Positions 13,913 through 35,541 of a DNA stretch of 40,501 nt are shown in pieces; the first letter of the stretch is position 1, and each line of letters begins with the position of its first letter. The stretch lies in IMG/VR virus record IMGVR_UViG_3300032050_000311, positions 1 to 40,501 of that record; one strand, given 5' to 3'. A program made the translations under genes and the position numbers. This DNA comes from a virus. The notes under the pieces were generated by a model. It was not told the DNA's origin. It did no database searches and was given only the letters and a program-made list of their open reading frames with translations.

Positions 13913-14376
13913 CTTTGCTCAACCCATATGTCTTGCTTGGCATCGTACTTGCCCTACTTGGCAGTTTTGGGGCTGGGTATTACAGTGGAGAGCAAGACGA
14001 ATATGAGCGCCAGCAGGTGGAGATCGCCCGTTTAAACGAGCAGGCACGGGAAACAGAACAACGCATGGCAGAGGTTGCCCAGACCTACGCCCAGACCTTG
14101 AAGAAAGCCAACGATGTTGCACGGATTAAAGAAATTAAGCTTCGTACTGATCTTGCCTCTGGCGAGCGCAAGTTGTTCATTCCTGTCAAAGCGCCCGACT
14201 GCCCCGTGTCAGTGTCCGAGCCATCCACCGCTGCCAGTGGAGATACAGAAACAAGAGCCGAGCTTGACGGACGAGTTGCTCAAGCTCTTGTCGATCTCAC
14301 CGCCCGAGGCGACCAAGCCATCCGGCAACTCAACACCTGCATCGACCAGTACAACCAAGTGAGGAGCATGAAATGA
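13909..14376 (+). CDS. Rz: Rz-like inner-membrane spanin
   Basis: 155 residues: an N-terminal transmembrane anchor (VLLGIVLALLGSFGAGYYSG), a long periplasmic coiled coil (EYERQQVEIARLNEQARETE onward) and a C-terminal part with RAELDGRVAQALVDLTARGD then AIRQLNTCIDQYN, which is the ending typical of Rz-family i-spanins. It would link the inner membrane to an outer-membrane partner and disrupt the outer membrane after peptidoglycan is degraded. Start overlaps the holin-like stop, and its end overlaps the endolysin ATG (ATGA). A nested candidate Rz1 lies in another frame at 14114-14362. Confidence 0.8.
   Translation: MTLLNPYVLLGIVLALLGSFGAGYYSGEQDEYERQQVEIARLNEQARETEQRMAEVAQTYAQTLKKANDVARIKEIKLRTDLASGERKLFIPVKAPDCPVSVSEPSTAASGDTETRAELDGRVAQALVDLTARGDQAIRQLNTCIDQYNQVRSMK
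14114..14362 (+). CDS. Candidate nested Rz1-like outer-membrane lipoprotein (o-spanin)
   Basis: An 82-codon frame lies wholly inside the Rz-like gene in the +1 frame, the same relation as lambda Rz1 within Rz. The product starts MLHGLKKLSFVLILPLASAS and then Cys21: a positive n-region, hydrophobic core and Ala/Ser before cysteine, as in a lipoprotein signal, although the -3 residue is Ser rather than the usual Leu. After Cys21 it is Pro-rich (RPTAPCQCPSHPPLPVE), as in Rz1 proteins. The ribosome site is weak. Position and composition support it; direct proof is lacking. Confidence 0.5.
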   Translation: MLHGLKKLSFVLILPLASASCSFLSKRPTAPCQCPSHPPLPVEIQKQEPSLTDELLKLLSISPPEATKPSGNSTPASTSTTK

Positions 14377-14837
14377 ACCTGACCGCCAATTTCTCCCTGC
14401 ACGAACTGACCAAATCCGAGACAGCCCTGCGCATGGGCTTAGACAACACTCCCGGGCCAGTTGAAACCGAGTACCTCAAAATCTTGGCTGAACGTGTTCT
14501 CCAGCCGATCCGCGATCACTTTCAAAAAGGTGTCAAGGTGAACTCTGGGTATCGCTCTCCTGACTCAAATGCAGCAGTGGGCGGAAGTCGTACCTCAGAC
14601 CATTGCAAGGGCCAAGCAGCCGATATAGAGATTCCCGGCGTACCAAATGCGGAATTGGCGCAGTGGATCATGGATAATCTGGACTATACCCAGTTGATTC
14701 TGGAGTTTTACACCCCCGGCATTCCTGACAGTGGTTGGGTGCATGTAAGTTACAACCCAGACAACTTAAAGAAGCAGGAGTTGACCGCCATGAAAGTCGC
14801 TGGTAAAACGCAATATGTTCCCGGACTTGTAGCTTAA
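14373..14837 (+). CDS. Endolysin, peptidase M15A family (zinc D,D-peptidase)
   Basis: 154 residues matching the length of a single-domain M15A peptidase. The family motif SGYRSPDSNAAVGGS-TSDHCKGQAADI contains zinc ligands His77 and Asp84, and WVHVSY supplies His124. Glu111 in QLILEF is the candidate general base. The enzyme would cleave D,D-peptide bonds or cross-links in peptidoglycan stem peptides and release progeny. It has no signal peptide and therefore depends on the holin. It is the last gene of the lysis cassette and starts on an ATGA overlap with the Rz-like gene. Confidence 0.85.
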   Translation: MNLTANFSLHELTKSETALRMGLDNTPGPVETEYLKILAERVLQPIRDHFQKGVKVNSGYRSPDSNAAVGGSRTSDHCKGQAADIEIPGVPNAELAQWIMDNLDYTQLILEFYTPGIPDSGWVHVSYNPDNLKKQELTAMKVAGKTQYVPGLVA

Positions 14838-19012: not shown

Positions 19013-19437
19013 TGGTGTCTTTGATACCACCGGGCATGGTGGCTCAAACGATACCGGGGTTGCTCCCTCTTTTAACAAAATCCCAAGAATGGACAAGAGG
19101 CAGGGCAACGGTAGACGACATCTTACGGTTTGTTTTTAATGGTCAGATGCAGTTGTGGATTGGGCATGAAGAAGGCAAAATCTACGGTCATGTGATTACG
19201 GAAGTAAAAGATTACCCACGGCGCAGAATGCTGGTTGTTCAGTACTGCGCAATGGAGCCAAGCCATATGCAGTATATGGATGATGAAATATTCGACCTGC
19301 TCAACAGGTTTGCTAGAGATGCTGGTTGTTCCGGCATTGAGTTCGTTGGTCGTCCCGGCTGGCGTAAACAGGCTGATAAGTATGGGTTTGAGGTGCAGAG
19401 TGTAGTGTACCAAAAATTCTTTAAGGAAGAAACATGA
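19009..19437 (+). CDS. GNAT-like acyltransferase-fold phage protein
   Basis: 142 residues starting on an ATGA overlap. The pattern fits a small GNAT-fold domain: FNGQMQLWIGHEEGKIYGHVITEV (strands 2-4), MLVVQYCAMEP, a helix EIFDLLNRFARDAGCSGIEFVGRPGW, and a final KYGFEVQSVVYQKFF strand. Similar proteins sit beside internal virion proteins in many podoviruses. The acetyl-CoA pyrophosphate loop (Q/RxxGxG/A) is not evident, so it may be a structural use of the fold rather than an active enzyme. Coupled to the next gene through an ATGA overlap. Confidence 0.6.
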   Translation: MMVSLIPPGMVAQTIPGLLPLLTKSQEWTRGRATVDDILRFVFNGQMQLWIGHEEGKIYGHVITEVKDYPRRRMLVVQYCAMEPSHMQYMDDEIFDLLNRFARDAGCSGIEFVGRPGWRKQADKYGFEVQSVVYQKFFKEET

Positions 19438-21896
19438 GTCGCAATTATCAACGTCAATTGGCTTTATTGGATACGCCCGCTGGCGATCTACGTGCGTTTA
19501 AAAAAGAAGGCGGAAAAATAAGGCTGTACGACATGGGTGGCTCTCCAAGCACGCCCGAGAAAACCACACAAGTTGTTGAACTGCCTGACTGGGCCAAAGG
19601 CTATGCCAAAGATACGCTGGCAAAAGGCGCGGCGCTTACCGATATAAGTAAAAACCCATACCAACAGTACGGTGGTGAGCGGATTGCTGGGTTTCAGCCT
19701 TTGCAACAAAGAACATTTGAGACAGCAGAACAGATGCAGCCATCCCAACAAGTAGGGCTTGGTTCTAGCATTGCTGGCATGGCGGGTCTTGGTGCGCTCG
19801 GTACAAATTACCAAGGTGGTAGATTTTATGGCGGTCAATTTAACGAACAAGCCGCTCAAGATTACATGGATCCATACGCTAAAAATGTGGTGGATTACCA
19901 GAAAGCTCAGGCTTTACGGGATTTTCAAATCGCTCAACCGATGCGTCAAGCCCAAGCAGTAAAACAAGGTGCGTTTGGTGGCAGCAGGTCGGCAATCATA
20001 GATGCTGAAGCACAGCGTTCTTTAAATTCTCAGCTTCAAGGCATTGAGGCTACAGGTCGGCAAGCTGCGTTTCAAAACGCCCAGCAGCAATTTGAACGTG
20101 ATCAGGCTCGGCGTTTACAAGCTCAAGGCATGGGTGAGCAGTCACGCCAGTACGGCGCTGGTTTGGGTATGCAGGGTCTCCAAACTGGATTGCAAGCCGC
20201 AGGTCAGTTAGGTCAACTTGGTCAAACCGAGTATGGTCAAAGAATGGGTATCACTCAGTTGCAAAGTCAATTGGGCGCACAGCAACAGCAGCAAGCCCAG
20301 CGTCCGCTGGACATGGCGTATCAGGATTTCCTAAACCAACAGAACTATCCGTATAAACAGTTGGGCTTCATGTCCGACATGATCCGTGGCTTGCCGTTGG
20401 GTCAACAATCAACTCAGTCGGTTTACGCAGCCCCGCCCAACTTGATGGGCCAGCTTGGTGGTATCGGTATGGGCGCTTACGGTTTAAGCAAAATGGGGAT
20501 GTTTGATTCCCCCACTCCGGGTAAAGCAGGCGGCGGTTTAGCTGGGTACGCTGACGGAGGAGAGGTAACAAGTCAAGGCAACAAAGACGCTATCGTTGAT
20601 GACATGTATAGCATTGAAGGTTTGCAGATAGCCAAAGAAGCTGCTTTGAACCGTCGTGACATGGACACCGTAGCAGCGATTGATGAACGCATTGCTCAAT
20701 TGAATGCAATACAAGCGCAGTCAGCTTCTATAAATTACGGACTGGGTTCAGCGTTTGACCAAATTCCACAAGAGCGCCAAGAAGAAATGATGGCTGGCGG
20801 CGGTATCGTTGCGTTTGCTGATGGGGACATGGTTTCTGACCCAATGGGAACTGGAGCAAGCGAAATATACGATGCGCCAGTCAACCCAAACTCATTAAGT
20901 TTTCTTCAGCGTATTACAAACGAACCCGCATGGAAAGCAAAAGCAACTACTGAAAAACCTAAAACAGCAGCAAGCGCTTCTGCTGTTGATGCATCAAATA
21001 AAACTGATGCAATGAGAAATGCGTCTCGTGCCGCTCAAGTAAAAACAAATGACAAAAAAGTTGCGCCTGCGCCAAAACAGAAAAAACTTAGCCCTGCCCT
21101 AGATAAAGCCGTCACAAAGATGGCTGAAGAGCAGGGTGTGCCCAAAGAAGACTTTATGGCCATGTACGATAAAGTGCGGGAAAAGTTACAAAATGAAAGC
21201 AAAGAAGACCTCAAGGGGTTGCAAGAACTAATAGACAAACAATCAGGCAAGTCAAAAGAAATCAAAGAGAAAGCCTTGGGTAAAGCCTTGGCTGAGTTTG
21301 GTTTTAATATGGCTGCTCAGGCTTCCAAGACTGGTAGAGAAAGTAAAGGTCAAGGTATCGCTGGTCTACTTGGGAGCGCTTCAGCAGCTGCACCTACGTT
21401 GGCTGCATCTTTTGCTGAGAGCGAAAAACTTGCTGCTGCCGCAGATGCTAACGACATGAAGCTGCAAATGGAGATGCGTAAATTTAACATCGCCACACGT
21501 AAGAATGACTCTGCAACTGCAATGAGCGCCGCACAAAACATGCGTATTTTGCAGCAACAACAAGAGACTATCAAACAGGCACAACGACAGCTTGATGAAA
21601 CCATTCGCGCAAATCAAGCCAGAGAAAACTTACAAAGGCAGCAAATTGCTGCTAGGTCTGGCACTGCTGGTCTGCGTGGTATGCAATACGTAGCAAGAAG
21701 TAGAGCTGAAGCTATGAAGTTGGCGCAAAAAGAAGTTGATTCAAAGATCAGAGGCGGTATGGGAACGGTGAAACCAGAAGACTATGACCGTATGCTAAAC
21801 CAAGCCATGAAAAAATATTTACCAATCACAACTGGGTTTGGTATGACTGGGATATCCTCTTCAAAAGACGATGACGACATAATTGATCTGGATTAA
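19434..21896 (+). CDS. Large internal virion protein, Gln-rich
   Basis: 820 residues. The first 350 residues are Gln/Ala-rich and helical (AAQDYMDPYAKNVVDYQKAQ; AVKQGAFGGSRSAII; long QLG/QQQ runs). Two short motifs of the type GGGLAGYADGGE and GGGIVAFADGD follow, which are repeated marks of internal proteins in environmental podoviruses. The C-terminal third is strongly charged and coiled-coil-like (KLSPALDKAVTKMAEEQGV; MRILQQQQETIKQAQRQLDE). It is likely an ejection protein that helps DNA cross the envelope, similar in place to T7 gp14/gp15. Assignment is by position and style. Confidence 0.65.
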   Translation: MSRNYQRQLALLDTPAGDLRAFKKEGGKIRLYDMGGSPSTPEKTTQVVELPDWAKGYAKDTLAKGAALTDISKNPYQQYGGERIAGFQPLQQRTFETAEQMQPSQQVGLGSSIAGMAGLGALGTNYQGGRFYGGQFNEQAAQDYMDPYAKNVVDYQKAQALRDFQIAQPMRQAQAVKQGAFGGSRSAIIDAEAQRSLNSQLQGIEATGRQAAFQNAQQQFERDQARRLQAQGMGEQSRQYGAGLGMQGLQTGLQAAGQLGQLGQTEYGQRMGITQLQSQLGAQQQQQAQRPLDMAYQDFLNQQNYPYKQLGFMSDMIRGLPLGQQSTQSVYAAPPNLMGQLGGIGMGAYGLSKMGMFDSPTPGKAGGGLAGYADGGEVTSQGNKDAIVDDMYSIEGLQIAKEAALNRRDMDTVAAIDERIAQLNAIQAQSASINYGLGSAFDQIPQERQEEMMAGGGIVAFADGDMVSDPMGTGASEIYDAPVNPNSLSFLQRITNEPAWKAKATTEKPKTAASASAVDASNKTDAMRNASRAAQVKTNDKKVAPAPKQKKLSPALDKAVTKMAEEQGVPKEDFMAMYDKVREKLQNESKEDLKGLQELIDKQSGKSKEIKEKALGKALAEFGFNMAAQASKTGRESKGQGIAGLLGSASAAAPTLAASFAESEKLAAAADANDMKLQMEMRKFNIATRKNDSATAMSAAQNMRILQQQQETIKQAQRQLDETIRANQARENLQRQQIAARSGTAGLRGMQYVARSRAEAMKLAQKEVDSKIRGGMGTVKPEDYDRMLNQAMKKYLPITTGFGMTGISSSKDDDDIIDLD

Positions 21897-21899
21897 AAC

Positions 21900-24800
21900 A
21901 TGGCAACCTACAAAGTACGTTCCGGCGGGAAGGTTTATAACTTTGAAGGGCCTGATGGCCTACCAGTAGATGCCGTAAAAATGTTGGCGTCAGATTATTT
22001 TAATTTGATGCAAGAACCCGAGGCTCCTCCTACCCCGGTAAAAAAACCGGAAACTGGCTTCATTCCGTCCATCAAACGTGGCGCTGCGCAAACCGGTGTG
22101 TTGTTGGGTGACATCTTGCCTGCTATGGCTGGTAGAGCAGTTGGCGCAGATGAGTATGCTGCGCAGCAGATGCAGGAGGCTGCAAAGTCTCAGGAAGAAA
22201 TCGCCAAAAAATATCCAGCTGAAGTACCGTCATACACTGACATTAAAGATGTTAGCGATGCGCTGGTGTATGCCAAGGAAGCAGTTGGCGAAGCTCTGCC
22301 CTCTCTCATACCAAGTTTGTTTACTGGTGGCACAGCAGCTATCCTAGGGCGTGGTGCAGTAGCTGCTGCGCAGGCTACAGCGGAGAAAGCTGTTTTGGCA
22401 CAAGCCGCCAAAGGTTTGGCTGGTGAAGAATTAAAGCAAGCTGCGACGCAAGCGGGAATCCAAGCTGCGCGGCAGACCGCACTCAAGTATGAAGCAGGTG
22501 GCGCGTTGGCTGGCTCTGCGGCACAGAACATACCTGATGTTTACCAGAACATTTACGAAGCCACAGGGCAACAAGACCTTGGTACAGCGATTGCGTTTGG
22601 TAGCTTTAACGCTGTGCTGGACGCTGCGTTACCTATAAGTCTATTACGCAAAGCCAAGCTGTCTGGTATCGGTCCTGAAGAATTAGGCGCGGCTTGGTAC
22701 AAACGTGCAGGCACGGGCGTAGCCAAAGGCTTTGTAACTGAAGGCGGCACTGAAGCGTTGCAAGAAGTATCAAGCGCGGCTGCTGAGAATTTTGTTGACC
22801 AGAACCTTGGGTTCTTCACACCGCAGAATTTTGAACGATTCATCAACGCTGGACTCAAGGGCGGGCTTGGTGGTGCTGGCATTACTGGCGTTGCAGACGT
22901 AGTGCTTGGCAAGGGGCCTGAAGCTGCGGCTGAAGCACAGAAGATTCAGACCAAAGGTTTGGCAGATGTTGAAGTGCCTGCTGATGCTGAGTTAGGTGTA
23001 GAGCCTGAACTTGCGCCTACTACAGTGCAGCGTGATGTGTCTGGGTTTGAGATTGCGCCTGAAGGTATAGCCCCTGCCGTTGTGCCTACTGGAGCGCCAG
23101 CTACTCAGCTTGATGTATTGATTGCTGATTTTGATAAAAGAGCTGCTGAAATTAAAGCACTTGAGCAAAAACAACGAGACGGCACTATTACGCCAAGAGA
23201 ACAAGGTTTATTAAGTGGAAAAAGAAACAAACAGCGAAGCGTCGAATACAAGATTAAGACTCTACAAACAGCTCAGAAAGGAACGCCAGATGTTGGACCA
23301 ACTGACACCACAGCAGGTGGAACAAGCGTTCCAGTGGCTGGACAGCCCGATACAGTCGTACCCACCGAAGGACTTGCAGAACCTGACGGACTTGGAGTGG
23401 TTCCTGCTGGACCGGATGCTGTGCAGCCTATTGCAGGAGAAAAACAGCCACCCATTACAGTAAATCAGCTTCCTATTGACGCAGACATAGAAGATTTTCC
23501 TTCTGTACATCCTATTACAGGGGAAAAAATAGAACTTGAAGACGTACCAAGTTTTGAAGCGCCTGTTGAAGAAATTACGCAGCAAGGTAAATCAGACCTA
23601 GAAACTCGCACCAAAGATATGGTGCAAAACGAAATTAGTGCTATTGATGAACAGCAACGCGCGCTATTGTCTAAAGATGGGCGTGCTCCAAAGAGGGGTA
23701 CAGAAAAATTCAAACAGTGGGAAGCCCTTGACAAACAACGCACTAATTTATTTAGTGAATGGGCGCAGCTTGACATACAAGAAAGCGCGGCTAAACAAGC
23801 AGAAGCTACCACCGAACAACAAGGAGACCAAGTTGGCACTGAAACCCCTGAAGCCGTCGAAACAGAAACGCAAGGACAAGAAGCGCCCATTGCCGAACCA
23901 ACAGTAGAGGTAACTCCTGAAGAACAACAGATGTACGAAGACACACGGGAATACCACAACGGTATTGAACCCGATGCGCGGTTACATCTACCTGAGTTTG
24001 GCGCGTTGTCACCTGAAGAAAAACAGGTTTACTTTGAAGGTTTAGCGACTAATAACCAGCCTGAACACGATATAGCTGCTGAAAAACTGTCAGCGTACTT
24101 GGCCGAGAAGCAAGGCATTGAGCCTGAAGGCGTGCCTAAAACTAAACCGTTGCCTAAGTTTGTTGAAGAACAACTGGACAATAACAACGCCACGGCATTC
24201 CTAAACTACTTGCGCACTTCTGCGCAAGACCCAGTGCATAGGGCTGTTGCACAGGCGCTTTACAAGCTCAAGCTCAAGACAAAAGTTGAAGTTGTAAAAA
24301 GTCTACCAAACAACCGCCCCGCTGAGTACGACCCTCAAACTGATACGGTCCGAGTGACTAAAGAAGGACAGACAGAGACTGTCTTACTGCATGAGTTTGC
24401 GCACGCCGGGACCCTACGTGTACTGTATGGGTTTGAAGAAAGCGAAGTCAAACTGTCTCAAAAGCAAGAAGACGGCGCAGTGCATCTTGACTACTTGATG
24501 AAAGAGACTAGCAAGGAGCTTAAGGCAAAGTATCCAGCTGCGTACGAAAACATTTACGAGTTTGTATCCTACGCCGTGACTGACCGCGCATTCCAAAAAG
24601 AATTACAGCGCATTCAAATTCCTGCTAGTAATTCACTGTGGGGTCAAGTTAAAAACGCATGGTCTAACTTTGTAAAAGCAGTTGCCCAAGTGCTTGGCAT
24701 TCCAGACACTGTTGAGTCGCGTAATGCGTTGATTGAAACCTTTGGCGCGTTTGAATACGTCATGGCTGCCCCCAAAGACGCTATCAAGATGGCTCCCCTG

Positions 24801-27800
24801 CCCACTGAAACGAAACAGGCAGAAACCTACGACGAGTCAAAGCTGTCTGATGAACAACTTGCAGCACAAGCTGAGTCTGAAGTTCAGCTAAAAGAACGGA
24901 CTGCCAAATCATTTTTGCGTAATTTGTTTACCAAGAAGGGCGGCCATTGGGCGGCCACTATGTTCCAGAACGAACGCTACCCAATTAAAGTGGTAGAAGA
25001 CCGTGCGCGGTTGTTCGGGATGCTCAAACGTATTGGGCCTGATCTAAACAATGTATATGGGCAGATTACACGTTCTGCTGGTATGGCTGTCAATCTGTAT
25101 GACGAGTATTTACGCAACGCAACTGAAGAAACCCATGCAGCTGTAGAAGCATACGCAAAGAAATCTGGATTGACTATCAATGAGGCGCTTGCACGTCTAC
25201 ACATTATTTTGGAAGCGCGCCACGAGCCTGAGCGCCGCCGTGTCAAGTACATAAAGACTGTGCCGCTTGAAAATGAAAGCAAGCGCATCAAGTTTGAAGG
25301 CAAGGAATATTCTGCTGAAGGGTTCAGGGAAGCGGTGATGCGTGAATTGGCGCAGCCTTCTTACCAAGTTACGCCTGAGATGACGCAGGATCAGATCAAC
25401 GAGCTGGATCAAAAACGCAAAGAGCGCGCGCTTGACCTACGCGCCATGTTGGATAAGGTTGTTGACGATAAAACATTTCACGCAAAGCAAATAAACAAGA
25501 AGCCCACTACGCCTGAAATGTTTAACCAAAACAATGCGATGTACAACGTCATTGCAAACCGTACGCCGCGACAGATTGCTGCAATCCTTAAAGAACGTGT
25601 AACGCCTGAAACAGAAAAAGAAGTTGGGGCAGTGGTAGAAGCCTTGCGTAAGGTCAATCAAATGACACAAACGCTGAACAAGATGGCGAACTACCATTCA
25701 CAACCCGCGTCAAACGTGATTGACTTCTATGACTTTAAAGACTATGTGCCGTTCAAAGGACGTCCGGGGTTAAGGCAAATTGACGAAGAGTTCAACATCG
25801 ACTCACGTCGTATTGGTGGTGACTTGCAAGAAGGCCAGAATCCTTTTGGTGGGCGAGAGTCTGAATCTGAGAACCCATTACTTCAATCCCTTGCGGATGG
25901 CGCGTCTGCTGCTATGCGTGCTGGACGTAAAGACTTGACTCTGGCAATTAAGAATGCCGTTGACCCCAAGAACAGATTACTCATGGGTAAAGTTAAGGAC
26001 ACTATCAAGTTTGAAGACCGCTTCTTGGGTAATCTTGATAAAAAAGATATTGGTGGAAGCAACAAGATATTTCACTACAACGCCGATGGAACAATTGACG
26101 TCATTGAACTAAACGATGAAAAACAACGCGAAGCCATTCGTCGTTCATACAGAACAACGCAACCGTTGATTGATATCGCTAACTCTATTACAAGTGGTAT
26201 CGGGCAGATGCATACACGGTATAACCCAGCGTTTGCACCAATGAACTTTGTGCGTGATGCGCTGACTAACGCCTTTACGCTTGGCGCTGAACTTGGCCCA
26301 GTCAAGGCAGGTCAATTGCTGACTGCTGTTGCTGCGGATGTGGCTGGTGGTGGCATGGCTAAGTCTGTGCGGTTCTCAAATCTTTACGCAAACGGTAAGT
26401 TCGATAAGCTAAGAGAGCTTGCCGCTAAAGATCAATACTATGCCGACCTGCTTGAGTACGTACAGTTGGGTGGTCGCGTGTCGTATCTCCAAGGGCTTGC
26501 TGCCAAGGGTGCGCTTGATGGACTGATGAAAGAGATCGGTCGCAGTGGCATCTTGCAAAAGAAAGATCAGGTAGATAAGTTCATTGATATCTATAACGAC
26601 ATGTTTGAATTGTCTAGCCGTGCCGCTACATACCGCATGTTGAAGGATCAGTTCTTTGCTGAGAACAAGTCAAGTGGCAAGTTTAAAAACGACGCTGATG
26701 CGCTAACTGATGCTAAGGCTCAGGCAGTTGAGTACGCCAAGAACCTAGCCAACTTTGAACAGGTAGGGCGTTGGGGCAGGGGTGCTGGCGCATTGTTCAT
26801 GTTCTTCCGTCCAGCTGCCACAGGTGCAGTCAGAGCTATTGAGGCGTTGGCTCCAGCGTTTGGTTTTAATGAAGCAAACTTTAGAGAAGAGGCTGCTGCA
26901 CAGGGCCGCACTGAAGAACAGATTGAGAGCGCGGTAAAAGAACTCAAACAACGTCAAACTAATGCACGGTACATGGCTACAGGTTTGATCGGTACAGGCG
27001 TGGCTATGTATTACATGGCGCTGATGATGGCAGAAGACGATGACCAAGGTCGTAACAAAGTTGTTACAGATGACATGGCACGCTGGACTCGGAACGCTCG
27101 CTTCCACATACCCGGCACAGACTTGATTATTCAAATCCCTTGGGGCTTCGGTCTTGGCGCGTTTGCATCTGCTGGTGCGCAGATAGCTTCTATTGCATCT
27201 GGCAGGACATCCCTACTTGATGCGTTTGGGAACATCTTGGTTACTGGAGTTGATTCATTCCTGCCCTTGCCGGTATCGCGTATCAGTCCGATAGACAATT
27301 TCCCAGCGTTTGCTATGGACTCAGTAACGCCATCTATGTTCCGTCCGTTCTTTGAGTATGTGATGAACTTGGATGGTCTGGGGCGTGAGATATACAACAA
27401 CCGTCAATCACGGTTTGGCGATGCCTATACAGGTGGCGACAACATTCCAGAGATGTACAAGAAAGCTGCCAGAGAATTGTTTGATGCAACAAATGGCGCA
27501 GTGGACTGGAGTCCAAACACCATGTACTTCTTTGCCAACAACTATTTTGATGGTATGGCAAAGATGGCCTCAAGCGCAACGAATGTTGGATTGACTGTGG
27601 CTGGGGCAAAAGAATTTGATCCAAAGAATGACATGGTGTTCCTCAGTAGTTTTATTGGCTCTAGATCAAACATTGATGCCCGTGAATTCAGTAGCATTGA
27701 GAAGCAGGTCAAACAGATGGAGCAGCGCATTAATTCGCTTAAAGACCGCCCAGAGCAGTTGGAAAAATTTATGGAAGACAACCCCACTGCTTATCCTGCC

Positions 27801-27989
27801 GTACAGTTTTACAACACGCAAGTAAATGGAACGCTGCGCAACATCCGCACTATGGCAAACCAAGTTCGCGCAAACAAAGATTTAACCATCATGGAACGCA
27901 AAGAGCAGCTCAAGCAACTCAACGACATGTCAAGCTTGGTCAAGCACAGGTTGGTTGAAGCCTTCGATATGCTTGACGTCAAGCCCTAA
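21900..27989 (+). CDS. Giant polyvalent ejection protein with zincin metallopeptidase motif
   Basis: 2029 residues, the largest gene of the window. The N-terminal MATYKVRSGGKVYNFEGPDG is a common start of giant phage internal proteins. Residues about 60-360 are helical with hydrophobic Ala/Gly segments; 380-760 are acidic and low complexity. At 831-835 lies HEFAH within ETVLLHEFAHAG, with Glu887 in YEFVSYAV, which fits gluzincin-type zinc ligands. Around residues 1410-1480, YNPAFAPMNFVRDALTNAF matches the large polyvalent protein domain LPD38. A transmembrane segment (YMATGLIGTGVAMYYMALMM) lies near 1690-1710. It probably enters the cell with DNA and may cut peptidoglycan or protein on the way. 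The last bases overlap a convergent gene. Confidence 0.75.
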   Translation: MATYKVRSGGKVYNFEGPDGLPVDAVKMLASDYFNLMQEPEAPPTPVKKPETGFIPSIKRGAAQTGVLLGDILPAMAGRAVGADEYAAQQMQEAAKSQEEIAKKYPAEVPSYTDIKDVSDALVYAKEAVGEALPSLIPSLFTGGTAAILGRGAVAAAQATAEKAVLAQAAKGLAGEELKQAATQAGIQAARQTALKYEAGGALAGSAAQNIPDVYQNIYEATGQQDLGTAIAFGSFNAVLDAALPISLLRKAKLSGIGPEELGAAWYKRAGTGVAKGFVTEGGTEALQEVSSAAAENFVDQNLGFFTPQNFERFINAGLKGGLGGAGITGVADVVLGKGPEAAAEAQKIQTKGLADVEVPADAELGVEPELAPTTVQRDVSGFEIAPEGIAPAVVPTGAPATQLDVLIADFDKRAAEIKALEQKQRDGTITPREQGLLSGKRNKQRSVEYKIKTLQTAQKGTPDVGPTDTTAGGTSVPVAGQPDTVVPTEGLAEPDGLGVVPAGPDAVQPIAGEKQPPITVNQLPIDADIEDFPSVHPITGEKIELEDVPSFEAPVEEITQQGKSDLETRTKDMVQNEISAIDEQQRALLSKDGRAPKRGTEKFKQWEALDKQRTNLFSEWAQLDIQESAAKQAEATTEQQGDQVGTETPEAVETETQGQEAPIAEPTVEVTPEEQQMYEDTREYHNGIEPDARLHLPEFGALSPEEKQVYFEGLATNNQPEHDIAAEKLSAYLAEKQGIEPEGVPKTKPLPKFVEEQLDNNNATAFLNYLRTSAQDPVHRAVAQALYKLKLKTKVEVVKSLPNNRPAEYDPQTDTVRVTKEGQTETVLLHEFAHAGTLRVLYGFEESEVKLSQKQEDGAVHLDYLMKETSKELKAKYPAAYENIYEFVSYAVTDRAFQKELQRIQIPASNSLWGQVKNAWSNFVKAVAQVLGIPDTVESRNALIETFGAFEYVMAAPKDAIKMAPLPTETKQAETYDESKLSDEQLAAQAESEVQLKERTAKSFLRNLFTKKGGHWAATMFQNERYPIKVVEDRARLFGMLKRIGPDLNNVYGQITRSAGMAVNLYDEYLRNATEETHAAVEAYAKKSGLTINEALARLHIILEARHEPERRRVKYIKTVPLENESKRIKFEGKEYSAEGFREAVMRELAQPSYQVTPEMTQDQINELDQKRKERALDLRAMLDKVVDDKTFHAKQINKKPTTPEMFNQNNAMYNVIANRTPRQIAAILKERVTPETEKEVGAVVEALRKVNQMTQTLNKMANYHSQPASNVIDFYDFKDYVPFKGRPGLRQIDEEFNIDSRRIGGDLQEGQNPFGGRESESENPLLQSLADGASAAMRAGRKDLTLAIKNAVDPKNRLLMGKVKDTIKFEDRFLGNLDKKDIGGSNKIFHYNADGTIDVIELNDEKQREAIRRSYRTTQPLIDIANSITSGIGQMHTRYNPAFAPMNFVRDALTNAFTLGAELGPVKAGQLLTAVAADVAGGGMAKSVRFSNLYANGKFDKLRELAAKDQYYADLLEYVQLGGRVSYLQGLAAKGALDGLMKEIGRSGILQKKDQVDKFIDIYNDMFELSSRAATYRMLKDQFFAENKSSGKFKNDADALTDAKAQAVEYAKNLANFEQVGRWGRGAGALFMFFRPAATGAVRAIEALAPAFGFNEANFREEAAAQGRTEEQIESAVKELKQRQTNARYMATGLIGTGVAMYYMALMMAEDDDQGRNKVVTDDMARWTRNARFHIPGTDLIIQIPWGFGLGAFASAGAQIASIASGRTSLLDAFGNILVTGVDSFLPLPVSRISPIDNFPAFAMDSVTPSMFRPFFEYVMNLDGLGREIYNNRQSRFGDAYTGGDNIPEMYKKAARELFDATNGAVDWSPNTMYFFANNYFDGMAKMASSATNVGLTVAGAKEFDPKNDMVFLSSFIGSRSNIDAREFSSIEKQVKQMEQRINSLKDRPEQLEKFMEDNPTAYPAVQFYNTQVNGTLRNIRTMANQVRANKDLTIMERKEQLKQLNDMSSLVKHRLVEAFDMLDVKP
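27971..27984. other. 14-bp perfect palindrome GCTTGACGTCAAGC
   Basis: A perfect, loop-free palindrome two bases before the stop of the giant ejection gene and right at the meeting point of the two convergent blocks. It may be chance or a protein-binding site. Confidence 0.4.
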
Positions 27990-28207
27990 GACACGCGCCA
28001 AACACGTATGCCAAGAACACCGTCTTCAGTGACGGTGTGTATTTTTACTTTTACATCGCTTTTCTTTGCCGCGTTATCAGCCGCATACGTCAAGTACGCG
28101 GGCTTCATAGTCGGTATAAAGAAGCTGTCCCCCACCAGCATGGCTGGATAGGGAAACAACCAGACGGGTTCATCGTAGGGCTTACTCGCTGACGACAGCT
28201 TCTTCAT
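27986..28207 (-). CDS. Small conserved phage protein after the primase gene (73 aa)
   Basis: 73 residues. The sequence (VWLFPYPAMLVGDSFFIPT, MKPAYLTYAADNAAKKSDVK, VTEDGVLGIRVWRV) is of a type I have seen in many phages: a conserved GDSFFxPT followed by a helix and a GIRVWR strand, with no known function. The ATG overlaps the end of the primase gene by 26 nt, so it is the last gene of the early operon. Its TAG overlaps the TAA of the convergent late gene, and a late-block terminator is embedded in its coding sequence. Confidence 0.7.
   Translation of the reverse strand: MKKLSSASKPYDEPVWLFPYPAMLVGDSFFIPTMKPAYLTYAADNAAKKSDVKVKIHTVTEDGVLGIRVWRVS
28017..28046 (+). terminator. Rho-independent terminator of the late (+) block
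   Basis: ACACCGTC, loop TTCAGT, GACGGTGT gives a perfect 8-bp stem, followed by GTATTTTTAC. It lies 28 bases after the stop of the giant ejection gene and inside the opposing 73-residue gene. The reverse orientation lacks a T run, so it should act on + transcripts only. Confidence 0.7.
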
Positions 28208-31031
28208 TTACAGGGAAGAGGTGAGTCATGTCCATTTCAAACTCGTAGGCTTGGATGTTTGTTGTGCCAAATGCATCCTTCCACCCTGAAGCCATCTGCT
28301 TGCGAATTTTGTTCTTGAGTGTCCCTCGACGTTGAAGATTGGATTCAAATTCCCTGACACCCAGCTTGATGTCTTTGAGGTATGTCTTCATGGCAGAGGT
28401 GGAGATGTATATCTTGCCCTCATCGACTTCAGCACGGATGTATAGCGCTTGCTTTGGTTCGGTTGATGTACGACCGTCTTTGATGACCAACGCAGATTGA
28501 ATGTATTTATTGATGAAGTCACCAAGGATGTCTTCGTAAGCGCTGGTCTTGTCTTTGGACTTGCCGTTGATTGTGTCCATGATGCCCTGCCCCACCACGC
28601 CAATGATGCGGTCTAGATCAAAGTTAAACAGGCCGAGTCTGTTGCCATCCTCTCCCGCCACCCTTGTCACTGCCAGCACGTTGGCAATGAATCGGTACTC
28701 AGCATTGTCTGTATAGGCGCGGCTGTAATCAAGGTACTCGTTACGGATGCGCTTTTTAACTTCAGGTAGAGTTTGTTGATACAAGTCCTTGACGTAGACA
28801 GGGCCAGCAAAGCCGTAATTAAACTTCAACGGTTCAAACATCAACAGACCCCGCGCCATGTTCAACTCGTAGCCCGGCTCTGATGGGCGTGGGACTTCTG
28901 GTTCAATAATCCGTACATCCTCTGGGTTTGTGTTTGCTTTGTATAGCGCAATGATGTCCTTGAGTGGCGTGTTTGTAGTAATGATTGCCAACAGGTTTGT
29001 GACAAATGACATCTCTCGTTCTTGGTTCACGGATGCCTGAAGCCGTAGCTTGGGCGCACCAGACGACACGTTGTAGGCTATATGAGATACGACCTTACCG
29101 TCTGTGTTTGACTGCTCATCCATACCAAACAAAATGTTTTTGCAGGTAATCATCCGTTGCATCAGGGCGTTTTGCGTGGCGTCAAAGACCGCCAAGTTCT
29201 CGCAGTTACCCCATACACTCAAAGCGCCATTTAGTGCGCCAGTCTTTCCGTTGCCAGCTTCACCAAACAAAGAATAAATAGCACCGTTGACGTTGGTGAA
29301 CTGCATCAACGGGGAAGCCAAACCGCACAGCACAGCAAAAGCGTGGTATTCATAGCCAGGGTCATTAAACATTTGAATGGCTTTCTTCCATTCATCGAAT
29401 GTACCTTTCTCTTGAATGTTCTTCACCACGTTCTTTGCTATCGGGGATGGCGGGCAGTATCGCTCTTCGCCGTCTGCCATGTACTCTGTTGTACCCAATA
29501 CAAATGACTCGTTGTTTTCTGTCCATCCTTGTTGTATTCTCATGATGCTTGCCCTTTGTGTTTGCATTAAAAAATCCATCCACTTAGTGATGTAGCTTGA
29601 TACCATTGGAGCGTGGCGCTGGTCAAAGTTAATACCTTGAAACAAAAGCGCCGACTTCAATCTATCGACTGCACCAACATCTTTTAGTGGCAGTAAAAAT
29701 TCACGGGTTGGGTCTATTGGTAACACCGCCCTCATTACCAAACATTCCCCATCATGTGGACTAAATACCCGTTGCGTTGGAAAGAAGTCCACAGCAGAAA
29801 TCATTTCTGGGGGGTCTTGAACCATTCCTTTTTTTGTTGCTCTGGGAGCTGGTTGGAAATAGATTCCTCCATTAATTCCTCTGGAAAATGGATAGAGGGC
29901 ATCGGGGAAGAAAGGAATTTTTTCGGTATGCGCTTCGACCCGAATTGATTCCTGCGTATTTGTTTGGGGTTCATCAAGCTCTCTGTCAATGGGCTGTTGT
30001 GGGGTTCTAAGGGTTTTGCCAAGTTCGATAGGCCCACGTTTTCCAAACTTACCTGCATAGGCGCATCCTTTGCATCCTCCTGAATTGGATCGTTCAAAGG
30101 CATCGCAACTAAATGACCAGTCGACTTCAAGGGATTGGGCGGCTTTTCGCTCAGTCTCTTCCCAAGAATATTTTGGGTGGTCTTCTGACATGAGATGTAT
30201 GGCAGTACTGCCATCACGACACCGAGCGGCGACAGATATTCCAGCGTACCAGATCGGCTCTGGACAACTAGCGGCGTTTTCGAGGATATATTTAATTTGC
30301 CCACAACCGTTCCCTTCTATACTCATTTGCGCGATGCGCATGAAGTCATATTCAAAATTGTCGTTACGTTTTTCGTAAATTGCTTTGGTGTCAGGGTCAA
30401 GACCCTTTTCAACCTTCTTCAGATCAAACGGCAGCTCAACTGTGCCAAGACGTTCAGTCCAGTACTCGAATGATGTTGGCTCAGCATCTTGTATGACTTC
30501 AACAGGCAACGGCTCGCCCTTGAGATTGCGAGACCCCGGTACTCTGAGGACTCGTGCTAAGTCTGCTGTGACTGTTTCGTCAATGTGCAAATCGTTGTCT
30601 AGACAGAATGCCTTGAACTTTTCAGCGTAGGGCTTCCAATCCTCAGCAGGTATTTCATCATCAAAAGGCCAGTATGCGTGTATACCGCGCCCAGAATTGA
30701 CGATGATTGGTTTTGGCAGATCAGTGGTCTGTACAAACTTGTGTATTGCAATTAACCCATCTGCCCACTCCGTATACGGCTTCCCCTCACCGCAATCCAA
30801 ATCAACGAAGAAGGCGCGCATGAAAATACAACCTGCCGCCTTACGTTCGTACCCCTCAAATGTCCCCAGTGCAAAGAATGTGTTGTAGTCGTCTTTGTCA
30901 AAAGCAACCATCTGTTCAATGGCGCTATCAATGTCATCAACAAACCGTGGCTTTACGCTCTTATCTTTGATACCTACTACACAAATGTTGCCCTGCGCTG
31001 GCAATACTTTCTCAAAAAATTGTTTATTCAT
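28182..31031 (-). CDS. Primase-polymerase (AEP) fused to a D5/DUF927-type helicase
   Basis: 949 residues. The N-terminal domain has archaeo-eukaryotic primase motifs: Asp77/Asp79 in FFVDLDCGE, SGRGIHAYW (113-121), and ARVLRVPGSRNLK (159-171). A cysteine cluster follows at about 308-325 (CDAFERSNSGGCKGCAYAGK), as in phage primases. The C-terminal half has a Walker A GEAGNGKTG near 590 and Walker B ILFGMDEQ near 633, as in the DUF927/superfamily 3-like helicases. The protein would unwind the fork and lay down primers. The mRNA has no clear ribosome site before ATG 31031 but an intrinsic-terminator-like hairpin 18 bases upstream. It is the penultimate gene of the early operon. Confidence 0.85.
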   Translation of the reverse strand: MNKQFFEKVLPAQGNICVVGIKDKSVKPRFVDDIDSAIEQMVAFDKDDYNTFFALGTFEGYERKAAGCIFMRAFFVDLDCGEGKPYTEWADGLIAIHKFVQTTDLPKPIIVNSGRGIHAYWPFDDEIPAEDWKPYAEKFKAFCLDNDLHIDETVTADLARVLRVPGSRNLKGEPLPVEVIQDAEPTSFEYWTERLGTVELPFDLKKVEKGLDPDTKAIYEKRNDNFEYDFMRIAQMSIEGNGCGQIKYILENAASCPEPIWYAGISVAARCRDGSTAIHLMSEDHPKYSWEETERKAAQSLEVDWSFSCDAFERSNSGGCKGCAYAGKFGKRGPIELGKTLRTPQQPIDRELDEPQTNTQESIRVEAHTEKIPFFPDALYPFSRGINGGIYFQPAPRATKKGMVQDPPEMISAVDFFPTQRVFSPHDGECLVMRAVLPIDPTREFLLPLKDVGAVDRLKSALLFQGINFDQRHAPMVSSYITKWMDFLMQTQRASIMRIQQGWTENNESFVLGTTEYMADGEERYCPPSPIAKNVVKNIQEKGTFDEWKKAIQMFNDPGYEYHAFAVLCGLASPLMQFTNVNGAIYSLFGEAGNGKTGALNGALSVWGNCENLAVFDATQNALMQRMITCKNILFGMDEQSNTDGKVVSHIAYNVSSGAPKLRLQASVNQEREMSFVTNLLAIITTNTPLKDIIALYKANTNPEDVRIIEPEVPRPSEPGYELNMARGLLMFEPLKFNYGFAGPVYVKDLYQQTLPEVKKRIRNEYLDYSRAYTDNAEYRFIANVLAVTRVAGEDGNRLGLFNFDLDRIIGVVGQGIMDTINGKSKDKTSAYEDILGDFINKYIQSALVIKDGRTSTEPKQALYIRAEVDEGKIYISTSAMKTYLKDIKLGVREFESNLQRRGTLKNKIRKQMASGWKDAFGTTNIQAYEFEMDMTHLFPVNEEAVVSE

Positions 31032-32277: not shown

Positions 32278-32691
32278 TTAAACTGAAGTTTCACTGGTTG
32301 TACTGGCCTTGCGCACTGTTATGTCAAACTCGCGCAAGGCATTCACTCCGGGAGGTAACCCTTTAGATTCCCGACCGTTCATGAATTCTTTGAAATTGCG
32401 TTGATGGATGCGGCGTTCAAGCAAATCAATCGAGCCTTCTGTCTCGACAAACTTCCTGAAGTAATCCCAATCAGTGCAAAAAAATCTTTCTTTGACTGTC
32501 CTAGTGACAGTGCCGTGTACTGTTTTAAATCCATTCAAATTCGCCTCATTACAAACTGCCAGCAACGCTTGTTCCAAGCGCGTCATATCTTCTTTGAGTT
32601 CCGCATCTGCCGAGTCGTACTCAGCTTTTAGGTTCTCACGTTTGCGTCTGATTGTCAAATAGGTTTCTACTAACACATCTGTGTCACTCAT
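32278..32691 (-). CDS. Conserved phage protein of the replication cluster (137 aa)
   Basis: 137 residues from ATG 32691, chosen because AAGGAG precedes it and because ATG overlaps the helicase stop (ATGAGTGA). The N-terminal half is a charged coiled-coil-like helix (TYLTIRRKRENLKAEYDSAD; KEDMTRLEQALLAV). The C-terminal half has a GTVTRTVKERFFCTDWDYFRKF motif, then LLERRIHQRNFKEFM and LPPGVNALREFDITVRK. The last phrase is familiar from hypothetical proteins in phage replication modules. Its function is unknown. A short gap separates it from the candidate ssDNA-binding gene downstream. Confidence 0.65.
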   Translation of the reverse strand: MSDTDVLVETYLTIRRKRENLKAEYDSADAELKEDMTRLEQALLAVCNEANLNGFKTVHGTVTRTVKERFFCTDWDYFRKFVETEGSIDLLERRIHQRNFKEFMNGRESKGLPPGVNALREFDITVRKASTTSETSV

Positions 32692-34261
32692 TGATTTCTC
32701 CTTCTTCAATTTCCACTCTGTACAGGTCTACTAATTGTTCGTGCATGTCTACTTTGTTCTGAAGCATTGTGTACATGCGCCGCTCCACCTCAGACCCTTG
32801 GAGGTGAATTACCGTCATTTTGTTTTTTTGTCCTACGCGATCAATCCGAGCAATACACTGTAAGTATGTCTCTACAGACATTACTGGAGACCAAAATACA
32901 ACTGTGTCAGCCGCTGTAAGCGTTACCCCATGCGATGCGGCTTGCGGTTGAATCAATAGTACTCGTGGGTGCGCTATGGTTTGGAATGAATTAAATATGG
33001 CTGACCTTTTGCTTGCGCTTACGTCTCCAGAAATAATTTCATTGGTGATGCCATTCTTCTCTAAATAATTTTTTACTAGATATAGTGTGTGTTTGTACGG
33101 CACGAACACAATTACTTTATGGGGCGACTCATCAAGTACCTCATGCAACACTGACAATCTAGGCTGAACATCAAACTCAACCACGTTGCCATCATCTGTG
33201 TACACAGCCCCGCCTGATAATTGAAGCAAGCGGCTCAGTGCGGCGGCGGCATTGACTGTGCTGATTGTTTCTCCAGCTGCTTGTATCTGCATCTCTTTTA
33301 AAAGTTCTCTGTAATACTTCATCGCTTGCGGTGTGAGCGGTACAACCCGTGTCTGATAAGTAACTTCTGGTAGATCAAGACACTGCGCCTTCTCGTATCT
33401 AATGGCTGGCTGAAGCGCCTTGAACACTGTGTCCTGCGCGTCGGGTTTCGGAACCCACTTAAACTTGGTTACTTGGCGCATCACAGAGTCTTTCCATGCC
33501 GTGGCATAGCGTGGCACTCCGTTGGGGTTTATGAGCTTGGCAAGCCCAAACGCATCCTCTGGCGACTGCGATGCAGGTGTGCCTGTCATCATCCAAAGAT
33601 ACGTGTCCTTGGTCAGTATCCTTGCAAGGGTGCGCCAGCGCTTTGTGGATACGGTTTTGTATGCGTTGGCTTCGTCAATGATGATTAAATCAAACTTGCC
33701 AGCAATCTCTTTCTCCATGACACCAACACCGTCGTAGTTGATGATGACAAAGTCATAGAGTCCATTGATGATCTTTTTGCGCTTTGATGTTGTGCCGTGT
33801 GCAATACCACATGTCCTGTGCATTGCAGTCTTAAACAAATCTGCTTGCCATGCGGACTGCATGATTGACAGAGGGCAGACGACTAACACACGTTTCACCA
33901 ATCCCTGATTCATTAAATAGTCAGCCGCCCATATAGCCGCTGATGTTTTACCTGTACCAGCCTCATTGAAACAAAACGAACGTTTGTTCAGAGTTAGGAA
34001 TCGTGAAGTATCTTTTTGGTGATTGAACGGTTGAAACATTCCCGGCCATGCATAGTCACGCTCAATGGGCGATGGAACTTTTATGGTGGGCGGGGTAAGG
34101 TACGAGAGACGTTGCATCTCATCAAGACCCCAATGCACTACGACATCAGCAATGCCGTCTTTTTCATCCAGCACTTCGCTACGTTCGATGTAGCTTTTTA
34201 TTGTCTGTGCAATGTCGCTAGGACATTCAAAACGCACAGCTATGTTGTTCACGATTTCCAC
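32684..34261 (-). CDS. SNF2-family DEAD-like helicase/ATPase
   Basis: 525 residues from a GTG at 34261 with AAGGGG upstream. Both RecA lobes are present: Walker A NEAGTGKTSAA (99-109, Lys105), motif Ia VVCPLSIMQSAWQ, Walker B LIIIDEAN (Asp196-Glu197-Ala-Asn, against the usual DEAH), motif III MMTGTPASQSPED, and C-terminal motif VI QCIARIDRVGQ near 468-476. These mark an SNF2-type dsDNA translocase. In phage replication modules such proteins occur beside PolA and probably remodel forks or remove proteins. It is the first gene after the - strand promoter at 34479-34506. Confidence 0.85.
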   Translation of the reverse strand: MEIVNNIAVRFECPSDIAQTIKSYIERSEVLDEKDGIADVVVHWGLDEMQRLSYLTPPTIKVPSPIERDYAWPGMFQPFNHQKDTSRFLTLNKRSFCFNEAGTGKTSAAIWAADYLMNQGLVKRVLVVCPLSIMQSAWQADLFKTAMHRTCGIAHGTTSKRKKIINGLYDFVIINYDGVGVMEKEIAGKFDLIIIDEANAYKTVSTKRWRTLARILTKDTYLWMMTGTPASQSPEDAFGLAKLINPNGVPRYATAWKDSVMRQVTKFKWVPKPDAQDTVFKALQPAIRYEKAQCLDLPEVTYQTRVVPLTPQAMKYYRELLKEMQIQAAGETISTVNAAAALSRLLQLSGGAVYTDDGNVVEFDVQPRLSVLHEVLDESPHKVIVFVPYKHTLYLVKNYLEKNGITNEIISGDVSASKRSAIFNSFQTIAHPRVLLIQPQAASHGVTLTAADTVVFWSPVMSVETYLQCIARIDRVGQKNKMTVIHLQGSEVERRMYTMLQNKVDMHEQLVDLYRVEIEEGEINE

Positions 34262-34881: not shown

Positions 34882-35541
34882 TTATCTTTCCTTATGAAAC
34901 TGGCATCGCTTCACGGGACACCAACCACATAATGGCGTAGGGTTTTCTTGCCAGACACCATTCTCGTACGAAAGGCGTAGGCGTTCAAGATGGGGGTAAA
35001 AGTCGCCCCAAAGTTTTTCCTCATCCTCTCTGTGGTATTCGGAGGGAAAGAAGTGTTCGTGCATAACAAACAGAAGCCCTGCCTTGATATTTACGATTTC
35101 AGGGTAGTGTGAAAAGACCATCAAGGCCATCAGCTGTAACTGTTTGGGGTCAGGGTATTTACTACTGCCTGTCTTGTAGTCCACAATAAACGCAGTGTCG
35201 CCATTCAAGACGACCAAGTCAGCAATACCACGCACCCAGTAGTCGCCCCACTTAGACGGCTTGCGATCAAACCCTAGCGCCATGCGTAGTTCGGGATGCT
35301 TGACGCCTTCCATCTCAATCAGGGGTTGGAGTTGTTTGGCAAAGCGTTGGTAGTCAGGCGCAAGGGGCTTACCCTCTCCCACATAATCTTCTACCGCTTT
35401 GTGTACCTCTGTCCCGTATCGCATTTCTGCGGTGGGGAACTTGGTGTAGTTCTTCAGTACTTTGATTTCTTGATACTGCCGTGGGCAGTTTTGATAATCT
35501 TTAAGACTGGAGTAAGACCATTTGACTTCGTGTGCTTCCAT
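34882..35541 (-). CDS. PD-(D/E)XK nuclease, Cas4/RecB-like with Fe-S cysteines
   Basis: 219 residues. Family motifs are complete: YSSLKDYQNCPRQY (Cys19), GTEVHKAVE (His47), GIADLVV (Asp108), VDYKTG (Asp121, Lys123) and QLQLMAL (Gln134). Three more cysteines at 205, 208 and 213 (LCGWCPVKRC) with Cys19 make the four-Cys set that holds a 4Fe-4S cluster in Cas4 and AddB. The enzyme probably resects DNA ends as a metal-dependent exonuclease in phage recombination or replication. There is no cas1/cas2 nearby, so a CRISPR role is unlikely. Nine bases separate it from the gene upstream. Confidence 0.85.
   Translation of the reverse strand: MEAHEVKWSYSSLKDYQNCPRQYQEIKVLKNYTKFPTAEMRYGTEVHKAVEDYVGEGKPLAPDYQRFAKQLQPLIEMEGVKHPELRMALGFDRKPSKWGDYWVRGIADLVVLNGDTAFIVDYKTGSSKYPDPKQLQLMALMVFSHYPEIVNIKAGLLFVMHEHFFPSEYHREDEEKLWGDFYPHLERLRLSYENGVWQENPTPLCGWCPVKRCQFHKER

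Follow-up and report, generated by a model that had tools for sequence, protein, structure and literature searches.

Zincin metallopeptidase (MPTase) domains were predicted in the polyvalent proteins of phages in 2017, and the available text of that study (Iyer 2017, PMC5512222) also predicts that such domains process polyvalent proteins, with DdrB of P1 as the precedent. In the portions of the literature available to us, we met no experiment showing what these domains do. The accessible text of a DEV phage preprint (PMC10925440) contains neither "protease" nor "zinc", that of an ejection-protein review (PMC8954989) lacks "protease", "zinc", and "peptidase", and the accessible parts of a P1 DarA/Hdf paper (PMC12810830) and a jumbo-phage review (PMC7824862) hold nothing on protease function. 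Three described virion proteins are relevant here. The N4 virion RNA polymerase (vRNAP, gp50) has solved structures of 3500-residue chains, LUZ19 gp37 is the last and largest product of the internal virion genes gp35–gp37, and PhiM1 gp48 is the tetrameric ejection protein (TEP) of the ejectosome. Database records name both LUZ19 gp37 and PhiM1 gp48 "internal virion protein with endolysin domain", and the PhiM1 paper, in its available text, uses BLASTP and DALI to describe TEP D268–D528 as endolysin/exotransglycosidase-like.

The window analysed here is a 40,501-nucleotide stretch of viral DNA. At 21900..27989 on the + strand it encodes, from an ATG start, a giant 2029-aa protein, probably an ejection protein, that combines a predicted zincin with LPD38. 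It falls among the polyvalent-protein metallopeptidases already known; the polyvalent proteins in the available text of Iyer 2017 (PMC5512222) include large phage proteins joining these two domains. The zincin is shared by structurally solved virion proteins of lytic phages, namely those of N4 (9PNQ, 9PNR, and 9PNT), of the LUZ19/phiKMV type, and of PhiM1, and the last two carry a muralytic label. A zincin in the virion proteins of studied phages turns the 2017 prediction into a checkable question.

Domain organization and predicted zincin fold

The conserved N-terminal module (residues 1–350; 21900..22949, + strand) was delimited by identity, a PHROG match, and hydropathy. It shares 44–73% identity with those diverged relatives that cover it, and residues 75–152 match a PHROG virion structural protein. 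The preliminary description had also placed a transmembrane segment in the protein. Moderately hydrophobic stretches are indeed present, including in this module, with the best Kyte–Doolittle 19-residue means at residues 231–249 (1.61) and 1692–1710 (1.37), but none is outstanding, and the segment is therefore weakly supported. The following linker (residues 351–740; 22950..24119, + strand) is poorly conserved, with 10–34% identity in diverged relatives over residues 351–700, and P, E, S, T, Q, and G make up 48% of its composition. The zincin domain (residues 741–955; 24120..24764, + strand) is followed by the conserved peptide AAPKDAIKMAPL (residues 956–967; 24765..24800, + strand), which lies between it and the highly conserved, mostly helical C-terminal module (residues 1011–2029; 24930..27986, + strand). 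The zincin is thus set between two conserved modules, beside a poorly conserved linker and ahead of a short conserved peptide.

The LPD38-like part noted earlier corresponds to PF18857 at residues 1724–1904 (27069..27611, + strand), with a Pfam match of 68 bits (cut-off 27). Pfam searches found no second enzyme domain in the protein. Searches for a known fold in the C-terminal module with Foldseek and VIA-align returned weak and scattered matches only; as the model spans 1019 residues at a pLDDT of 78, a new fold should not be concluded from them. Directly upstream, an 820-aa protein (19434..21896, + strand) matches the PHROG "DNA ejection protein" (phrog_4287, E 5.4e-25). No solved relatives of the whole 2029-aa protein or of this neighbour were found by phmmer.

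HEFAH (residues 831–835; 24390..24404, + strand), which would supply two zinc ligands and the general base, is the sole HExxH of the protein (0.013 expected from composition), and Glu887 (24558..24560, + strand), on the helix after the HExxH helix, is the predicted third ligand. Both had been pointed out in the preliminary description and were confirmed. The AF2 model of residues 741–955 (pLDDT 89.2, pTM 0.86) is predicted with good confidence to form a zincin. Helices are followed by three strands, the HExxH helix, and a helix with the Glu, so that HExxH and Glu lie on successive helices preceded by a three-stranded sheet and an N-terminal helix; Tyr810 is a conserved strand residue. This core order agrees with the MPTase description in the available text of Iyer 2017 (PMC5512222).

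Structural and profile matches also point to a zincin. The best VIA-align row was formed by lethal-factor-type peptidases (Z 8.2; models lacking a clear match usually have a best Z near 8), followed by N4 vRNAP residues 2124–2362 (Z 7.5 over 173 residues) and the PPEPs (Z up to 6.7). Foldseek gave no match for the zincin model at E <= 0.001 (best 0.076). No Pfam family covers the domain; metallopeptidase models match 1–3 of 64 members each, weakly and beside unrelated models. Zinc binding and proteolytic activity are predicted properties of the domain.

Conservation of the catalytic residues and their slot

Among 64 aligned domains with a mean column identity of 23%, only H831, E832, H835, E887, and F888 are invariant. 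Because 25 of these rows came from a pattern search with LHExxH or EF, their invariance is partly by construction; the same five residues are nonetheless invariant in the 39 rows fetched without use of the motif. His862 was discarded as a conserved active-site residue, being invariant among 16 sequences yet His in just 36 of 64.

The motif was not lost in relatives. It is kept in 19/19 members of a first relative search and in every usable member of a larger set, whose counts are independent of the motif. For this set the C-terminal half alone served as the query, matching 276 stretches, of which 99 were confirmed and 80 loci kept; six (L038, L046, L083, L089, L095, and L099) were dropped because their sequence ahead of the C-terminal module was shorter than 300 residues. 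Exactly one HExxH occupies the same slot in all 74 usable relatives and in all 54 non-redundant representatives. By comparison, none of the 158 other frames of at least 400 aa at these 54 loci has an HExxH, a control that covers both strands and includes spurious frames and proteins shorter than the ejection protein.

The 16-sequence zincin profile matches 60/74 relatives and 41/54 representatives. It matches 160 frames, all with HExxH, many of them fetched by patterns including LHExxH. The KEF group proved homologous when compared with the 64-domain alignment without shared rows (P 99.3, E 4.6e-20), and in three of the 54 representatives the slot holds a different-looking HExxH domain, so that a metalloprotease, and not one sequence, seems to be kept. 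One profile scan of genome contigs yielded no cellular or prophage relatives (48 stretches matched a pattern, 0 confirmed). HExxH is missing from a distant LPD38 protein of Vibrio phage 252E42.2 (3066 aa); the protease is thus not everywhere a requirement of the C-terminal module. Judged from these sequences, strong constraint acts on the protease slot in a large podovirus lineage that seems to be uncultured.

The peptide after the zincin has the family form roughly aPxxGIxxapL. This pattern, chosen after inspection of the sequences, is present in 41/54 representatives compared with 7/54 control stretches, and 13/54 are without it. The peptide, just beyond the folded model, may be a self-cleavage or docking site.

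Candidate roles of the zincin

Delivery of the protein with the DNA, as proposed in the preliminary description, is likely, considering the PHROG ejection-protein neighbour and the homologous domains in N4 vRNAP and PhiM1 TEP. Gene order also bears on this point. We give an even chance to a reading in which a latent zincin in a giant podovirus ejection protein is co-ejected with the DNA and, once delivered, most likely cuts its own chain or its ejection partners. The protein would be packaged in the virion with the zincin latent there, and would be ejected with the DNA into the host. Cleavage after delivery would release the C-terminal module from its attachment to the N-terminal part and may help dismantle the ejection channel, with the peptide beside the zincin as a candidate cut or docking site. 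The available text of Iyer 2017 (PMC5512222) describes N4 vRNAP as packaged unprocessed, and its 3500-residue chains have been solved; self-cutting cannot therefore be constitutive.

The main rival, cleavage of host proteins in the first minutes of infection, was also raised in the preliminary description; the co-ejected zincin would cut one or more proteins of defence, the envelope, or transcription. The three representatives with a different-looking zincin are expected if targets change, and the nearest VIA-align folds include proteases that act in trans. The same role is the alternative given for polyvalent MPTases in the accessible parts of Iyer 2017 (PMC5512222). However, with 41/54 representatives matching one profile and the KEF group homologous, the domain is more uniform than we would expect of an arms race. 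We regard a host target as possible though rather unlikely, and self-processing of the giant protein as at least as likely. The zincin might instead act during assembly by maturing the giant protein within the procapsid, or else other proteins of the head, as P1 DdrB, which has such a domain, is processed before packaging (PMC5512222, available text). The unprocessed state of packaged N4 vRNAP speaks against this, as does a head protein in locus L189 with further matches to profiles that bear the name head maturation protease, which makes a separate maturation enzyme possible; we consider this role improbable.

The idea that the domain opens the envelope by degrading peptidoglycan or crosslinks at entry, raised in the preliminary description, draws on the "endolysin domain" records of LUZ19 gp37 and PhiM1 gp48 and on the call made for PhiM1 TEP D268–D528 in the available text of its paper. 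Yet the HExxH of gp48 (385) lies inside that very stretch, and the nearest folds of the zincin are HExxH peptidases, not peptidoglycan hydrolases. The phage, moreover, already has a separate M15 endolysin at 14373–14837. The idea thus found little support, and we rate it as very improbable. That the zincin is a structural relic, a zinc-binding fold retained for stability or encapsidation and not catalytic, seems quite improbable too. In its favour, the N4 MPTase region is required for encapsidation, according to the available text of Iyer 2017 (PMC5512222). A purely structural zinc site, however, would not require the base Glu, so the invariance of Glu832 in 64/64 domains speaks for catalysis, and HExxH is kept in the slot even where the domain looks different.

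Relation to known peptidases and ejection proteins

The HExxH...Glu arrangement resembles that of M34-type peptidases (lethal factor and PPEP), which gave the highest Z among the structural matches, at about 15% identity. In M34 peptidases a Tyr is conserved seven residues ahead of the Glu ligand, whereas the present protein has Ala880 at that place, and Tyr is outside the six commonest letters of the column. It also differs from one widespread phage MPTase clade in the available text of Iyer 2017 (PMC5512222), having Thr838 instead of an Asp three residues past HExxH.

The zincin and the C1 domain of N4 vRNAP (residues 2124–2375) fall in one clade; C1 is a homologous HExxH domain (HELVH 2228) in an ejected giant protein. 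Their hhalign comparison gave P 95.2 and E 2.7e-8, or P 48 and E 1.8e-4 with HExxH masked, against P 0.5 and E 0.12 for the best of 30 shuffles; N4 vRNAP was matched by the PDB profile search at about 2e-6. Unlike N4 vRNAP, which has four vRNAP Pfam domains, the 2029-aa protein has no RNA polymerase domain in Pfam searches. A PHROG vRNAP match at residues 559–1011 was rejected as evidence of virion RNA polymerase identity, as 62/64 zincin domains alone match that profile. The C-terminal C2 domain of N4 vRNAP was likewise not recognized by hhalign, and the C-terminal module was dismissed as its homologue after comparison with N4 residues 2050–3500 (P 0.2).

The phiKMV/LUZ19 gp37 protein carries the same zincin (HEAVH 423; hhalign P 98.4). 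The profile matched PDB entry 9sfn, an "Internal virion protein" to which LUZ19 gp37 is identical over the 128-aa piece searched, at E 8.2e-17; no paper naming 9sfn was found. PhiM1 gp48 (8vb2) also has the zincin (HEAAH 385; profile E 2.5e-7). Unlike the 2029-aa protein, both are shorter (1337 aa for gp37 and 1263 aa for gp48) and lack an LPD38 match, and gp37 is annotated with an endolysin domain.

We tentatively suggest, at somewhat less than an even chance, that a zinc protease recurs as a near-obligatory component of the ejection machines of podophages, in this lineage as well as in N4-like vRNAPs and the gp16-class channels of phiKMV/PhiM1 type, and that the "endolysin/exotransglycosylase" of phiKMV gp37 and PhiM1 TEP is this protease, which would amount to an unnoticed protease-driven step of infection. 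A T7 gp16-type muralytic domain gave no Pfam match in the 2029-aa protein, and none in LUZ19 gp36 either, which is annotated with a lysozyme motif. If the "endolysin" domain of phiKMV gp37 and PhiM1 TEP is a protease, a protease would take the place, in these channels, that a peptidoglycan cutter has in T7.

The HExxH domain of the giant protein and its predicted fold

The open reading frame at 21900–27989 (+) encodes 2029 residues, arranged as an N-terminal module, a linker with little conservation, the putative protease, a short linker, and a conserved C-terminal module. The preliminary description had noted HEFAH and Glu887 in this protein, and we located HEFAH at residues 831–835, its sole HExxH (composition predicts 0.013), and Glu at residue 887. 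The proposed LPD38-like part was confirmed by a Pfam LPD38 match (residues 1724–1904; 68 bits, the cut-off being 27). The TM segment that had also been proposed is possible but not evident: no stretch is more than moderately hydrophobic, the best means over 19 residues being 1.61 at 231–249 and 1.37 at 1692–1710. The PHROG profile phrog_2206, 'virion RNA polymerase', labels window positions 23574–24932, where no polymerase domain was found; the zincin domain by itself matches this profile, and automatic annotation would give the giant gene a wrong name.

The zincin fold suspected earlier was predicted by AlphaFold2 for residues 741–955, using 64 sequences (pLDDT 89.2, pTM 0.86). The model comprises N-terminal helices, three strands, a helix with HExxH (model residues 86–107), and a helix with the Glu (145–154), and matches the core of the metallopeptidase domain of polyvalent phage proteins (MPTase) as given by Iyer et al. 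2017 (PMC5512222). A Foldseek search with the model gave no match at E ≤ 0.001, the best value (0.076) being short of significance. At the head of the VIA-align list stood lethal-factor-type peptidases (Z 8.2), residues 2124–2362 of N4 vRNAP (Z 7.5, 173 residues), and PPEPs, with Z values reaching 6.7; judging from their titles, nearly all of the top rows presumably have the HExxH peptidase fold. These Z values are modest taken alone, and their weight comes from the shared fold of the top rows and the agreeing sequence evidence.

Only H831, E832, H835, E887, and F888 were invariant among the 64 aligned domains, at a mean column identity of 23%. Although 25 of the 64 rows came from a search with patterns containing LHExxH or EF, the same five residues were invariant in the 39 rows from searches without those patterns. 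That the general base, Glu832, never varies argues for catalysis.

Conservation of the HExxH slot

HExxH was kept in 19/19 relatives found with the whole giant protein. A motif-independent search, using only the C-terminal module (residues 1011–2029; alignment of 16 sequences), confirmed 99 loci, of which 80 were kept; leaving out six with <300 residues upstream gave 74. All 74 contained exactly one HExxH in frame, 174–469 residues upstream of the C-terminal module, as did the 54 representatives at 90% identity (54/54). The motif loss in close relatives that the preliminary description had named as counterevidence was therefore not seen in any of these sets. Other frames of at least 400 aa at the loci of the 54 representatives contained no HExxH (0/158), with similar residue numbers (115,510 versus 117,012).

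In 52/54 representatives, HExxH was followed 45–125 residues later by a Glu-Phe motif like that at Glu887; the remaining two (loci L093 and L096) carry HELAHTGNMDH or HELAHTGDMDH, an HExxHxxxxxH pattern. The slot domain of another locus, L091, has HEILH with SEFWA and looks different from the main clade. The zincin-domain profile (16 sequences) matched 41/54 representatives. Divergent domains with KEF at the third ligand were homologous to the main clade (hhalign P 99.3, E 4.6e-20), as judged with nine KEF sequences against the 64-domain alignment after removal of shared and KEF rows. The homology of L091 (P 33) and L093/L096 (P 12) to the main clade was not clear. Because 3/54 representatives hold a different-looking HExxH domain at this position, these few cases suggest that the slot requires a metalloprotease and not one particular sequence.

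Related ejection proteins and gene order

Against the PDB, the zincin profile matched 9sfn, 'Internal virion protein' (8.2e-17), 8vb2, PhiM1 gp48 (2.5e-7), and N4 vRNAP entries (~2e-6). The 9sfn piece matches LUZ19 gp37 at 100% identity and phiKMV gp37 at 99%. In hhalign, the zincin domain matched LUZ19 gp37 (P 98.4), N4 (P 95.2, E 2.7e-8), and PhiM1 gp48 (P 90.7); masking HExxH lowered the N4 match to P 48 and E 1.8e-4, against P 0.5 and E 0.12 for the best of 30 shuffles. LUZ19 gp36, PhiM1 gp49, and the Vibrio phage 252E42.2 protein gave no match. In N4-like phages, a tblastn search with the gp37 piece also led directly to genes that carry the annotation virion RNA polymerase (4e-8). The N4 gp50 C1 region has already been called zincin-like (PMC5512222; PMC8472413), and PMC12633501 describes it as having the HExxH of zincins.

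Database records name LUZ19 gp37 (L190:4753-8766) and PhiM1 gp48 (L191:3867-7658) 'internal virion protein with endolysin domain', and both hold the same zincin domain, with HExxH at 423 and 385, respectively. The PhiM1 structure paper describes D268–D528 of the tetrameric ejection protein gp48 (TEP), a stretch that includes the HExxH of gp48, as 'endolysin/exotransglycosidase-like'; the words 'protease', 'metallo', and 'peptidase' do not appear anywhere in the paper's main text. Pfam detected a muralytic domain in neither gp37 nor gp48, which is weak evidence because it also detected none in gp36, annotated with a lysozyme motif. The endolysin label of gp37 and gp48 is likely a mislabel. Among the papers listed in literature searches (titles and abstract starts, most subscription journals being outside coverage), none states that gp37 or gp48 holds a zincin.

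The window, a 40.5-kb virus record, also carries tail genes, an Rz-like spanin, and an M15 endolysin. A 54-kb contig encoding an identical giant protein reaches, by coordinate reckoning, ~13 kb further left, where it carries large terminase, portal, and major head protein genes. A protein adjoining the portal gene in L189 (L189:8179-8637) showed a weak match, over part of its length, to a GroES-like co-chaperonin PHROG (E 1.9e-6). An 820-aa PHROG 'DNA ejection protein' (19434–21896) directly precedes the giant gene, which closes the structural module. Downstream, on the minus strand, lie replication genes: a DUF927 primase-like protein (28182–31031), an SNF2-type helicase (32684–34261), a PD-(D/E)XK nuclease (34882–35541), and DNA polymerase A. 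The same order, a mid-sized gene and then the largest internal virion gene, is seen in LUZ19 (gp35-gp36-gp37) and PhiM1 (gp50-gp49-gp48). From this gene order beside an ejection gene and the likeness to LUZ19 and PhiM1, we infer that the giant protein would be packaged and ejected.

Possible action and relation to known proteins

A domain that separates two conserved modules would be expected to lie between them, as this putative protease does. The linker that follows the zincin is variable except for a short conserved peptide right at its start, roughly aPxxGIxxapL (residues 956–967; window 24765–24800). This pattern, chosen after the sequences had been seen, occurred between zincin and C-terminal module in 41/54 representatives (13/54 lacked it), versus 7/54 same-length stretches upstream of the zincin. 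The peptide may serve for cutting or docking, or it may just be where the domain ends.

According to Iyer et al. 2017 (PMC5512222), N4 vRNAP is packaged unprocessed, and cutting would therefore need a trigger after ejection. The reading we favour, with about an even chance of being right, is that the zincin would be latent in the virion and, once triggered after ejection, the putative protease would act first on its own complex. Host proteins, a target raised in the preliminary description, could come next, which we rank lower, as less likely than not. Opening of the envelope by the zincin domain, also raised there, has little support. The C-terminal module is not always accompanied by a protease, since Vibrio phage 252E42.2 has a related protein with LPD38 (3066 aa, L182:2008-11208) that contains no HExxH and gave weak methyltransferase matches instead.

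Polyvalent phage proteins carrying MPTase domains and LPD38 form a known class (PMC5512222), and the window protein is a new member. Our additions are a slot count that does not depend on the motif, together with its control; three representatives in which the zincin has apparently been replaced; and a connection to the gp37/TEP proteins labelled muralytic.
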